Positions 4,191-7,239 of a DNA stretch of 22,535 nucleotides are shown in pieces. The stretch covers positions 1 through 22,535 of the IMG/VR virus record IMGVR_UViG_3300031841_000394, one strand, 5' to 3'. Below the pieces are notes generated by a model that did no database searches, was not told where the DNA came from, and saw nothing but the letters and a program-made list of their open reading frames with translations. This DNA is from a virus. Within the stretch, counting starts at the first letter, position 1, and every line of letters starts with the position of its first letter. Made by a program: the position numbers and the translations under genes.

Positions 4191-4337
4191 TTATTGTGAT
4201 ATTTTACGTGCTAGTGCTTTGTTCTTACGTGCAATTTTACGTAAACGTTTGTGCTCATCACGCTTTGGTTTCTGTCCAACGTTGGACACTTTTTTGGTGC
4301 TTGCAAACTTAATAAAGTTTTGCATCTCGTAACGCAT
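4191..4337 (-). CDS. small very basic protein (48 aa)
   Basis: The frame starts MRYEMQNFIKFASTKKVSNV. The second half is a Lys/Arg-rich helix (RKIARKNKALARKISQ). AAAAGGAG stands 8-9 bases before the ATG. The strong positive charge suggests nucleic-acid or ribosome binding. One of the perfect 14-bp palindromes (4274-4287) lies inside the gene and encodes its SNVG residues. Its start overlaps the 51-aa gene by 29 bases. Confidence 0.65.
   Translation of the reverse strand: MRYEMQNFIKFASTKKVSNVGQKPKRDEHKRLRKIARKNKALARKISQ
4274..4287. repeat. palindromic site GTCCAACGTTGGAC, copy 1
   Basis: This is a perfect 14-bp palindrome inside the 48-aa gene. The immediate flanks extend it to a 16-bp palindrome, TGTCCAACGTTGGACA. 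It is one of four sites in the leftward half and intergenic region; see the finding. Confidence 0.85.
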
Positions 4338-4464
4338 TGTACTTCTCCTTTTTACTAGGCTTGCGTTTCGTGCCCTTTTTAGGTGGCACTACCTGTGGCT
4401 GCTTGCGCTGTTCGAGCATAGCTTTTGCCACTGGATTCGTTATATTTCTCTGTTTCAATTTCAT
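4309..4464 (-). CDS. small basic protein with NPVAK motif (51 aa)
   Basis: The frame starts MKLKQRNITNPVAKAMLEQR, then PQVVPPKKGTKRKPSKKEKY, and ends at a TAA inside the next gene. The RN-x-x-NPVAK start followed by a basic tail is a layout I recognise from a widespread small phage/bacterial family of unknown function. The gene overlaps the end of the 101-aa gene by 86 bases in another frame and the start of the 48-aa gene by 29 bases. No clear ribosome site is seen, so coupled translation is likely. It is too short to be caught by usual length cut-offs. Confidence 0.6.
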   Translation of the reverse strand: MKLKQRNITNPVAKAMLEQRKQPQVVPPKKGTKRKPSKKEKYNALRDAKLY

Positions 4465-4684
4465 CACGTATTCCTTTTAATACAGCTATAAGATTATCCA
4501 AAGTTGCGGCATAGTTTTGTATGTATGCAGTATCCCATGTGCTACCGTCTTCAGGTACAATAGCCACCTCTTGTATAGCGGCAGTACCATTATACTTAGA
4601 ACTAGGGCAGTCATAATGTTGTGCAATAGATACTTTTGTGCCTTTGTGAAAAACACTAATGTTATTAAATAAATCGTCCATCAT
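4379..4684 (-). CDS. hypothetical protein (101 aa)
   Basis: This soluble protein begins MMDDLFNNISVFHKGTKVSI and has a mixed first half followed by a predicted helix (AATLDNLIAVLKGIRDEIET) and a low-complexity tail (YARTAQAATGSAT). A GAGG ribosome site precedes tandem ATGs at 4684 and 4681. The last 86 bases are shared with the 51-aa gene in another frame; the simple tail may be a by-product of that overlap. No family is recognised. Confidence 0.7.
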   Translation of the reverse strand: MMDDLFNNISVFHKGTKVSIAQHYDCPSSKYNGTAAIQEVAIVPEDGSTWDTAYIQNYAATLDNLIAVLKGIRDEIETEKYNESSGKSYARTAQAATGSAT

Positions 4685-4688
4685 AACT

Positions 4689-5273
4689 TTACCTCGCTAT
4701 GTTATGTTGTCTGCGCCATGCTACCCAAGTGATAGCTTGCATTTGATAACCTTTGATACCAACTTTGTCGGCAGCTTTGTAGTATGCATCAGCAATGATG
4801 CCATATTCCTTGACACCTACGTTGTTGTTCTTGAGAACTCTACGCAGTCCATCATGTATGTTCTTGGCGTGACCGTCTACAGTCACAACGTCTAGTCCAA
4901 CTATGTTGGCAAAGAAAGCTGTAGTCTTACGTCCATTGAGTTTAGCCATCAATGCTTTCTTACGAACCATCTTTTGCTCAAGCATATCCCATGCCTTACG
5001 TTTGTTGGCAGGATAGGCAGACACAGTTACCTCATCTATACTGCAACCATTTGTAAATGCCTCAATCAAATCACGTGCAGACTTGAGATTGACAGACCAA
5101 CCAAGGTTGGGAGACAGTGCAGCAATGACACCAACAGTAGTGTTTACACTAACGCCAAATTCTTTGGCAATCTTTGTGGCGTCACGCTTTGCAATGGCAT
5201 ACCATTTCATGCCATGATCAATCTCATCAGCAGTAGCTGAACGATAAACTTTTAGTATTTGTCTTACAGACAT
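4689..5273 (-). CDS. conserved phage protein, possibly DNA-glycosylase-like
   Basis: The 194-residue protein has motifs I associate with a family common in actino- and marine phages: ILKVYRSAT at the N-terminus, VGVIAALSPNLGWSVNL, VSAYPANKRKA, and VTVDGHAKNIH near residue 135. The all-helical pattern with a conserved VDGHA segment recalls HhH-GPD base-excision glycosylases, and I believe the family carries a DUF number (possibly DUF7178), but I cannot verify either. If right, it would act on modified or damaged bases. The ATG at 5273 overlaps the upstream stop as TAATG. Confidence 0.68.
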   Translation of the reverse strand: MSVRQILKVYRSATADEIDHGMKWYAIAKRDATKIAKEFGVSVNTTVGVIAALSPNLGWSVNLKSARDLIEAFTNGCSIDEVTVSAYPANKRKAWDMLEQKMVRKKALMAKLNGRKTTAFFANIVGLDVVTVDGHAKNIHDGLRRVLKNNNVGVKEYGIIADAYYKAADKVGIKGYQMQAITWVAWRRQHNIAR

Positions 5274-5539
5274 TATTCTTCCCTCGCATCTAAAGATATT
5301 GCAGTAAATGAATGTGTTTCATCCCATTCCTCTGGTATAATACCAGTGATTAAAAACTGGATTTGATCCCCATTGAAATGCGGAAACATATCATGGGCAT
5401 TTAGACCCCAGTCTTCCCAATGCTCAAGATTGCCTTGACGTGTAGGTAACACCATTGAATTGACGTTACCAGTAAGTACAGATGATCTGTGAACTCTCAC
5501 AAATCCATCATCTACGTGTTCGATTTTATGTATCATCAT
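5273..5539 (-). CDS. hypothetical protein (88 aa)
   Basis: The protein starts MMIHKIEHVDDGFVRVHRSS and is rich in His, Trp and acidic residues, with LEHWEDWGLNAHDMFPHFNG in the middle and a beta-rich end. It has a GAGG ribosome site. The palindrome at 5556-5569 ends 17 bases upstream of its ATG, so this gene and those after it are the most likely targets if that site is an operator. The family is not recognised. Confidence 0.72.
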   Translation of the reverse strand: MMIHKIEHVDDGFVRVHRSSVLTGNVNSMVLPTRQGNLEHWEDWGLNAHDMFPHFNGDQIQFLITGIIPEEWDETHSFTAISLDAREE

Positions 5540-5555
5540 AAACCTCGTTTAAAGT

Positions 5556-5569
5556 GTCCAACGTTGGAC
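5556..5569. repeat. palindromic site GTCCAACGTTGGAC, copy 2
   Basis: This perfect copy lies in the 38-base gap between two leftward genes. It is the only copy in a short promoter- or leader-like position close to a start codon in the block. On the minus strand it is flanked as CCGTCC...GGACAC. Confidence 0.85.
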
Positions 5570-5577
5570 GGTTTCAA

Positions 5578-5811
5578 TTAATAGTAGTCAGCGTAGTCAG
5601 CTTGTTCAAGCCAACGTAGTGCTACGTCTGGTGATGATGCACCAACAGACATACAAATGTCAACAGCTTTCTGCTGTTCTTCACGCTCTTGTGCTATTTG
5701 ACATTCAAGTTCACGCTGCAAATAGTCAACGAGTTCAGCAGTAGGCTGAATGTTACGTGGTCGAAAACCATGTACGTCTTTGTACAAATCACTGAAAAAT
5801 TTGTATTCCAT
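5578..5811 (-). CDS. small phage protein with KDVHGFRPR motif (77 aa)
   Basis: The N-terminal MEYKFFSDLYKDVHGFRPRN motif is one I recognise from small proteins of many phages. The rest is a charged helix (LQRELECQIAQEREEQQKA) and an acidic end (LEQADYADYY). The start is ATG 5811, because GAGG lies 6-8 bases upstream; the ATG at 5823 would put that site inside the gene. The function of the family is unknown. A candidate promoter with an inverted repeat lies directly upstream (5841-5881). Confidence 0.72.
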   Translation of the reverse strand: MEYKFFSDLYKDVHGFRPRNIQPTAELVDYLQRELECQIAQEREEQQKAVDICMSVGASSPDVALRWLEQADYADYY

Positions 5812-5840
5812 TTTAAACCTCATTGTTAATGTCTACATAT

Positions 5841-5881
5841 GTTATATAACACTTTCACTAATAATTCAAGTGTTATATAAC
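5841..5881 (-). promoter_or_regulatory. 14-bp inverted repeat with embedded promoter
   Basis: Arms GTTATATAACACTT (5841-5854) and its exact complement (5868-5881) enclose 13 bases. Each arm contains the self-palindrome GTTATATAAC, so the two palindromes are 31 bp apart. Read leftward, TTGAAT (5864-5869) and TATAAC (5841-5846) are 17 bases apart, a fair sigma70-type promoter facing the 77-aa gene. No T-run follows, so a terminator is less likely. This looks like an operator-controlled promoter. Confidence 0.55.
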
Positions 5882-5891
5882 TATGAGACTA

Positions 5892-6053
5892 TTAAAGTTC
5901 ATCCAGATACATTACCAGATAGTTGATTGCCATTACGATTATGAACACAATTACCATGTGTGGTATTGCAAGTAATGTGTCACTTGTCATGCCGATTAGG
6001 ACTATAGTCACTAGTGCCATGCCATTCACTAAGAACATTAAAAATGGTATCAT
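5892..6053 (-). CDS. small two-helix membrane protein (53 aa)
   Basis: Almost the whole protein is hydrophobic: MIPFLMFLVNGMALVTIVLI forms one segment, a polar GMTSDT turn follows, then IPHMVIVFIIVMAINYLVMY forms a second, ending LDEL. This predicts an inner-membrane hairpin. The ATG (6053) follows the stop of the 53-aa gene upstream by one base, with GGAG about 8 bases before it. The size and topology suit a small holin-like or exclusion protein; neither can be shown. Confidence 0.68.
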   Translation of the reverse strand: MIPFLMFLVNGMALVTIVLIGMTSDTLLAIPHMVIVFIIVMAINYLVMYLDEL

Positions 6054-6054
6054 T

Positions 6055-6216
6055 TTATAACTCCAATTCTACAATTTGACCATTATCCAAATGGATACCT
6101 TCTACGTGAAAAAGATCGTAGGAAGCATCCACAGCATCTTGATATGTATCATAACTCGAATGTATGAAAGGTTTACCCAATTCATTAAAACCAACAATAA
6201 TCCACATTTTATCCAT
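6055..6216 (-). CDS. hypothetical small protein (53 aa)
   Basis: The protein starts MDKMWIIVGFNELGKPFIHS and continues with a YDTYQDAVDASYDLF helix and an acidic end. The pattern (beta strand, helix, beta strand) suggests a small alpha/beta fold. ATG 6216 has GGAG 7 bases upstream; ATG 6207 is an alternative. The stop lies one base from the next start, so the two genes are likely co-translated. Confidence 0.66.
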   Translation of the reverse strand: MDKMWIIVGFNELGKPFIHSSYDTYQDAVDASYDLFHVEGIHLDNGQIVELEL

Positions 6217-6242
6217 TGTTAAACTCCAGTAGTGGAAACAGC

Positions 6243-6860
6243 TTACGCTGCTTCCTTTTTTACTAACGCTGCCTTTGACTGTAAGTCAGCAATGATTGTA
6301 TCAATGTCAATCTGGTGATCGTTGCAATGTGCAAAGATTGCGTCAACGATTGAGGTACGAGTGTTACCCAGTGAGTATGTACCTTTGGGTACTTCCACCC
6401 AACCAGTGTCATTGATTTCCTCAGACTGTTCGTCAGACTGTCCAACGTTGGACGGTTCAGCTTTAGCTGTAGGTTCAGCTTCCGCTTTGGCTACATCACG
6501 CATTGCTTTCTGCAAAGCAGTAAGAGAGGTAAAACCTTTCTTGGAACATTCCATGAAAGCACGACAAGCCACCTCGTTTTCAACGAACCACAATGCCTCT
6601 GATCGTCTTCTACGATCAATGTTGTGGATGCCATGAGTAGTGAGCGTTTGACGTGAGATTTGACCACTGTCCAAAGTAGACTGAGCCTTTAGCTCAACAA
6701 GCAGTTTACCTAGTCGAGTATCAAAGCCATTAGCTTTGGTTGACTGTTTCACGTTATGTAAGGCAGACCACATTTTGCCAAGAGCTTTGCCCTCTTTAAC
6801 GAGGTCATCTAGCTTTGTTCCAACTGAAGTTGATTTGCTAACTGAGATTGATTTTGCCAT
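6243..6860 (-). CDS. hypothetical protein, first gene of the leftward block (205 aa)
   Basis: The start is ATG 6860, with AAAGGAAG (6867-6874) 6 bases upstream. The frame continues open for another 126 bases upstream, but only through the leader inverted repeat. The N-terminus (MAKSISVSKSTSVGTKLDDL) is Ser/Lys-rich. The middle is helical and basic, with GQISRQTLTTHGIHNIDRRR and SEALWFVENE. A Glu/Ala-rich linker then leads to a C-terminal helix pair. The basic core suggests DNA or RNA binding. As the first leftward gene next to the control region it could be a regulator or replication-related, but no domain is recognised. A palindrome copy (6440-6453) lies inside it. Confidence 0.78.
   Translation of the reverse strand: MAKSISVSKSTSVGTKLDDLVKEGKALGKMWSALHNVKQSTKANGFDTRLGKLLVELKAQSTLDSGQISRQTLTTHGIHNIDRRRRSEALWFVENEVACRAFMECSKKGFTSLTALQKAMRDVAKAEAEPTAKAEPSNVGQSDEQSEEINDTGWVEVPKGTYSLGNTRTSIVDAIFAHCNDHQIDIDTIIADLQSKAALVKKEAA
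6440..6453. repeat. palindromic site GTCCAACGTTGGAC, copy 3
   Basis: This perfect copy lies inside the 205-aa gene, in the linker between the helical core and the C-terminal part, where it encodes SNVG. Copy 1 encodes the same four residues in an unrelated protein. The flanks on the minus strand are CCGTCC...GGACAG. Confidence 0.85.
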
Positions 6861-6873
6861 GATTGGCTTCCTT

Positions 6874-6968
6874 TCACTATCTAATGTTTCTATATGAGAG
6901 TTACATATATCTCTCACACTAAAGTGAGATATATTAACTATCATTAGAAACGTAGTATTAGATAGTGA
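6874..6968. repeat. 95-bp imperfect inverted repeat in the leader of the 205-aa gene
   Basis: The outer arms are TCACTATCTAAT (6874-6885) and its exact complement (6957-6968). A second stem, GTTTCTA (6886-6892) with TAGAAAC (6945-6951), follows across a 5-base bulge. Inside are further dyads, including TCTCAC/GTGAGA around 6913-6928. In the leftward mRNA the stem would end right at the AAAGGAAG ribosome site. It is a strong candidate for a structured leader or protein-binding site. Confidence 0.7.
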
Positions 6969-7083
6969 GGTTTGCGTGTGTGACATACGATCCTCTGCGC
7001 CTGTCGTTTCCTGCGTGACTGCAGGTATCTACGATACCGAAGTTCGTGTGTGAAACTCATGTGTGTGCACGAGGAATGTTACC

Positions 7084-7097
7084 GTCCAATGTTGGAC
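7084..7097. repeat. palindromic site, copy 4 (one mismatch)
   Basis: GTCCAATGTTGGAC differs from the perfect copies at one central base. It lies in the intergenic control region with the same flanks (CCGTCC...GGACAG) as copy 3, here on the plus strand. Confidence 0.75.
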
Positions 7098-7138: not shown

Positions 7139-7239
7139 TGTAATCGGCACTGGATACACACTCTGTTTTTGTGATCACATAATTTGAAACACATTATCTG
7201 GTGGCAACTGATTGCATAACAGTTACCGATTACAGATAA
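7139..7239. repeat. nested dyads: candidate origin, att or operator site
   Basis: TGTAATCGG (7139-7147) and CCGATTACA (7226-7234) form a 9-bp inverted repeat. Between them lies the perfect palindrome TGTGATCACA (7170-7179). TTATCTG (7194-7200) pairs with CAGATAA (7233-7239), and AACTG (7206-7210) with CAGTT (7220-7224). These overlapping symmetries are typical of protein-binding regions such as attP, origins or operators, but none can be proved here. Confidence 0.5.

Follow-up and report, generated by a model that had tools for sequence, protein, structure and literature searches.

Palindromic sites along the early operon of HMO-2011-type marine phages change in concert with the first early gene, a candidate DNA-binding regulator

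Cluster A mycobacteriophages such as L5 and Bxb1 carry more than 20 stoperators per genome, asymmetric 13-bp sites that lie in and between genes and are bound by a monomeric repressor with an N-terminal helix-turn-helix (HTH) (PMC6550527, PMC9283540). These sites are mostly aligned with transcription, their consensus diverges together with the repressor, and reversal of a site abolishes repression (PMC9283540). In phage lambda, CI and Cro act on palindromic operators, with a specificity that differs between immunity groups. The lambda N/nut system combines a site in the leader of the first early gene with an arginine-rich protein segment and some strand polarity, while the parS sites of ParB are palindromes that lie near parB.

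Here we compare these systems with a 14-bp palindrome in a 22,535-nucleotide stretch of viral DNA (the window). As with the Cluster A stoperators, many copies of one short site occur in and between genes, and the site diverges together with a protein, in this case the product of the first early gene, g247. Unlike the stoperators, the sites are palindromes that number 4-9 per genome and occur in the early operon only, and g247 belongs to no known family, is the first early gene and itself holds a site. Because the site is palindromic, we do not regard it as a member of the Cluster A stoperator family itself. As to orientation, the sites described here have a palindromic core, their asymmetric variants are mostly degenerate on the downstream side, and one of the five sites of HMO-2011 is inverted. 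The resemblance to lambda CI/Cro lies in the palindromic, putative operators of a phage regulator and in their shifting specificity; the differences are that an HTH_3 protein is lacking, that g247 has no Pfam match, and that the sites are spread over 3-4 kb and lie partly inside genes.

The virus record consists of exactly the window and holds no further sequence. The terminase of the window shares 81-89% identity with the terminases of Puniceispirillum phage HMO-2011 and of the Roseobacter phages CRP-1 and CRP-345, and hence the window represents a fragment from an HMO-2011-type phage. Phages of this type are very common in the ocean. All eight (near-)complete genomes of relatives encode a tyrosine integrase; none of the eight encodes an HTH_3 protein (PF01381, CI-type) or a ParB_N protein (PF02195), for which controls were positive. 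Integration into a tRNA gene has been described for CRP-3, which is more distantly related within the group (PMC6918029). Many HMO-2011-type phages have an integrase, and a repressor is mentioned in neither PMC9038755 nor PMC6918029. A search of bacterial genomes for g247 prophages yielded none.

All four copies of the palindrome lie on the leftward early operon, at the positions given by the earlier note (Table 1), and none lies among the late genes of the window. Copies 1 to 3 are exact occurrences of GTCCAACGTTGGAC, while copy 4 reads GTCCAATGTTGGAC. No fifth match was found in all 22,535 bases when up to three mismatches were allowed. Dinucleotide-shuffled sequences contained 0.49 matches on average and reached four in 0 of 100 shuffles, in agreement with the earlier view that such repeats are not expected by chance. 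The four sites are the sole perfect 14-bp palindromes of the window, and at copy 1 the palindrome indeed extends to 16 bp. Copies 1 and 3 do encode the same residues, as had been noticed, and the sites are indeed kept as DNA, as the earlier note had suggested. Related phages retain the palindrome at corresponding positions of their early operons. This retention is the opposite of the absence from relatives that the earlier note had named as evidence against its reading. Copy 4 is the counterpart of the leader site in nearly all relatives, counterparts of copy 1 were found in three loci (L046, L124 and L126), and copy 2 lies directly upstream of the ribosome-binding region of the ORF at 5273-5539.

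Table 1. Positions in the window of the palindromic sites, the first early gene and neighbouring features.
Feature	Position	Strand	Description
Copy 1	4274..4287		Inside 48-residue ORF 4191-4337 (minus); encodes SNVG, ..KKV-SNVG-QKP..
Copy 2	5556..5569		Intergenic, between ORF 5578-5823 and ORF 5273-5539; 17 bp upstream of ATG at 5539
g247	6243..6860	minus	First early gene, 205 aa; candidate site-binding regulator
Copy 3	6440..6453		Within hypervariable linker of g247, between two helical parts; encodes SNVG, frame ..AEP-SNVG-QSD..
Predicted helix 113-128 of g247	6477..6524	minus	Putative recognition helix
Covarying residues of helix 113-128	T114 6519-6521; K118 6507-6509; R121 6498-6500	minus	
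Inverted repeat ATATATCTCAC..GTGTGAGAGATATAT	about 6905-6935	minus	Directly upstream of g247 start codon
Conserved leader blocks	6989-7010 and about 7203-7225	minus	Flank the leader site
Leader site (copy 4)	7084..7097		GTCCAACATTGGAC on the early (minus) strand; 224 bp upstream of likely ATG of g247 (6860)

The leader of the operon has further features. Two blocks strongly conserved in relatives, GAAACGACAGGCGCAGAGGATC and (C)AACTGTTATGCAATCAGTTGCC, flank the leader site, and the latter is an inverted repeat; neither has an Rfam match. The strong inverted repeat close to g247 could be an RNA hairpin. Rfam and tRNA scans were empty, and a promoter search in the leaders gave no consistent sigma-70 match and no promoter that could be placed with confidence.

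The g247 protein could also start at an in-frame upstream ATG at 6986, which would extend it to 247 residues. Pfam, PHROGs and NCBIfam yielded no accepted family for it. It is predicted to be all-alpha, with an AlphaFold model of only fair quality (pLDDT 72-74). A Foldseek search against the PDB returned no match and no solved relative, and in a fold comparison with this model the best VIA Z was 4.0, with a mixture of unrelated helical proteins, some of them TetR-like. Among viral models the best match was S4S2E1 (205 aa, 24% identity), which has the same length as gp74 of HMO-2011 and may be gp74 itself. The protein carries an arginine-rich segment, RRRRSEALW, with a conserved RRRR motif. Apart from the site-encoded SNVG or SDVG, the linker that joins its helical parts is hypervariable, which suggests that a protein linker accommodates an operator.

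When viral contigs were scanned for the 14-mer, many proved to have two to eight copies, which varied mostly in the middle two bases. We also gathered loci by alignment of the g247 protein, without use of the motif, in two partly overlapping searches of 80 loci each. GTCC-N6-GGAC sites were present in 80 of the 80 loci from the first search and in 79 of 80 from the second, which reached more distant members; the single g247 locus without a site was L272. Usually one site lies 170-450 bp upstream of g247 and one at about +350 to +450 inside the linker, followed by further sites downstream of g247 every 0.3-1.3 kb. Relatives found via the neighbouring gene DUF7178 had sites at equivalent places if they had g247, and none if they lacked it. 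Among 426 distinct sites, the middle step was pyrimidine-purine in 402, with the centres TG, CA and CG all in use and interchangeable, and the outer bases were constant except for five A13-to-T variants. A strand bias of the central dinucleotide, considered as proof of an RNA element, was dropped on finding CC centres and a position-dependent use of CA. A copy of GTCCAAGGTTGGAC that recurs in the integrase gene of relatives (e.g. CRP-1 6868; L159 6868-6881) is probably coincidental, because it remains unchanged in genomes whose sites have switched and can be read as integrase coding sequence.

In about 20 genomes, all or most of the sites had shifted jointly, from GTCCAA..TTGGAC to GTCCGA..TCGGAC or to a hybrid of the two. 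Every early site of several relatives is GTCCGATGTCGGAC or its CA form where sister genomes carry GTCCAATGTTGGAC, and in some lineages hybrid GTCCGACGTTGGAC sites predominate. Simultaneous change at four to six distinct positions points to a single reader that acts in trans. We compared site type with the columns of 91 distinct g247 proteins, with the exception of residue 138, whose codon is part of the site. Columns 114, 121 and 118 gave the best separation of the two site types, and in the predicted helix 113-128 these residues share one face (i, i+4, i+7). With 166 proteins, a tree built without columns 114, 118 and 121 placed 13 independent switches of site type, and residue 114 changed in step with site type in each of the 10 informative independent pairs (sign test, p=0.002). 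This test corrects for the relatedness of the g247 loci. The raw counts, which ignore kinship and come from related and partly redundant loci, paired threonine at 114 with A5 sites in 138 of 142 cases and serine with G5 sites in 22 of 23. Among the few exceptions were L106 and L315, with mixed site sets, and L192 (the same contig as L322), which has S114 with A5 sites. Other early proteins, available in smaller samples, had no comparable fixed column. Since one amino acid and one base pair of all sites change together repeatedly, g247 very probably encodes the reader of the sites.

HMO-2011 has none of the A5- or G5-type motifs. A profile search identified its first early gene, gp74, as a distant homologue of g247 (E 2e-19). 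A search for relatives from gp74 alone found only HMO-2011 itself. If g247 proteins read the sites, HMO-2011 should carry sites of its own, and this prediction held. Five exact copies of AGTCCGACAGCGGACT occur around gp74 and further down the early region. One lies 289 bp upstream of gp74 and one immediately after it; the other three are at 60 (inverted), 1261 and 1926 of the circular record. They are the only GTCC-N6-GGAC sequences in the 55 kb of HMO-2011. These sites share the outer half-sites of the window type and differ in the inner bases; in gp74, positions 114, 118 and 121 are occupied by K, K and D.

We are highly confident that g247 binds the palindromic sites, and on balance we expect it to act as a repressor or roadblock. 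The palindromes are probably DNA operators of g247, which would then be an autoregulated early repressor with stoperator-like sites and represent a new family of DNA-binding regulators. From the computational evidence, which comprises the sites, their linkage with g247 and the covariation, we infer binding by a dimer, repression and immunity along the following lines. Each subunit of a g247 dimer would insert helix 113-128 into one half-site. Invariant parts of the protein would recognise the outer GTCC/GGAC, residue 114, aided by 118 and 121, would recognise base pair 5/10, and the flexible pyrimidine-purine step at the centre would permit bending. Made early, from a leader with one site, g247 would then bind in this leader, within its own gene and at 1-7 additional sites farther along the early operon. 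Bound g247 would stop early transcription either at initiation or, in a stoperator-like manner, by blocking RNA polymerase at each site. As g247 is cotranscribed with the operon that it would repress, this scheme requires another promoter or a feedback role. In these phages, which bear an integrase and in which no HTH_3 (CI-type) repressor was found, g247 is the leading candidate for the missing repressor of lysogeny or immunity.

In a rival reading, RNA antitermination or processing similar to lambda N/nut, each site would be a hairpin in the early transcript, and g247, with its arginine-rich segment, would bind it through the RRRR motif and keep RNA polymerase going. The leader site does precede the first gene. 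Moreover, the inner pair 5/10 occurs as A-T, G-C and G-T, and on the transcribed strand hybrids of the G5/T10 type, which would form a G.U pair, outnumber those of the A5/C10 type by 11 to 1. Across all g247 loci, the half of the asymmetric variants that lies downstream in the direction of transcription is degenerate in about 26 of 30, and such orientation fits an RNA element too. The four outer pairs, however, show neither wobble nor compensatory swaps in the 426 distinct sites, TG, CA and CG all serve as centres, both AAGGTT and AACCTT are found, one of the five HMO-2011 sites is inverted, and the covarying residues lie outside the arginine motif. Flank complementarity that would extend an RNA stem was not found. 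We consider an RNA role unlikely and prefer a DNA-level function with direction, as in stoperators. A distinctly unlikely variant at the DNA level is an activator or a DNA-loaded antiterminator similar to lambda Q, in which the sites would load g247 and so promote early or later transcription. Its place as first early gene and the oriented variants would suit such a role, but sites in and between genes far from any start would be unusual for an activator, and the late genes of the window have no sites.

The earlier note had weighed an operator of a leftward repressor against a centromere-like, ParB-type site. The operator is well supported, as the sites are confined to the leftward early operon and covary with a leftward gene to which they are linked. 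This gene, which probably encodes the binder, is also the one that contains copy 3 and is preceded by copy 4 in its leader. The centromere proposal was not supported. That g247 condenses, anchors or partitions the phage genome, akin in function to ParB, Noc or SlmA, would agree with the clustering of sites around the gene of the presumed binder, as for parS near parB, and with the location of some sites within genes regardless of promoters. Against it, ParB_N is absent from the eight genomes, the covarying protein is predicted to be all-alpha and matches no ParB family, the sites are restricted to the early operon, and their oriented variants point to transcription. The parS-like layout seen in copy 1 did not hold either, since the invariant part of the site is GTCC/GGAC and the core of parS is of the TGTTTCACGTGAAACA type. 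An integrase in all eight genomes would also make a plasmid prophage unnecessary, and we judge a centromere function to be very unlikely. Finally, the sites could be targets of another, unseen protein, with g247 merely carrying one and hitchhiking. The site within g247 and the linkage of other early genes to the sites are compatible with this, but of the proteins tested only g247 shows the covariation at 114, 118 and 121, with its 13 independent switches, and the link persists in the distant homologue of HMO-2011. An unseen reader thus seems extremely improbable.

With operators of g247 as the preferred reading, the regulator gene, the full set of sites and the predicted code would allow tests of early control, and of possible immunity groups, in cultured phages, through gp01 of CRP-1, gp01 of CRP-345 and gp74 of HMO-2011. 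A predicted immunity type could be read from metagenomic contigs, and g247 and its sites would offer a natural case of a protein-DNA specificity switch that has been repeated many times. Only tentatively do we propose the reading in full, namely that g247 is a new family, perhaps with a new fold, of repressors for lysogeny and immunity in HMO-2011-type phages, acting on roadblock palindromes in the early operon through a readable code of one residue and one base pair, with a dozen or more switches in the ocean.

The palindrome also occurred elsewhere. IMG/VR contig 3300046490_000065 (L250-L254; 94,628 bp, GC 58%) has no g247 homologue and contains 26 GTCCRANNTYGGAC sites, which are spread fairly evenly over the whole contig, on both strands, in and between genes. 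It seems to be a different genome that uses the same palindrome with another reader. Seven GTCCRANNTYGGAC sites were present in a further contig of 36 kb (L024).
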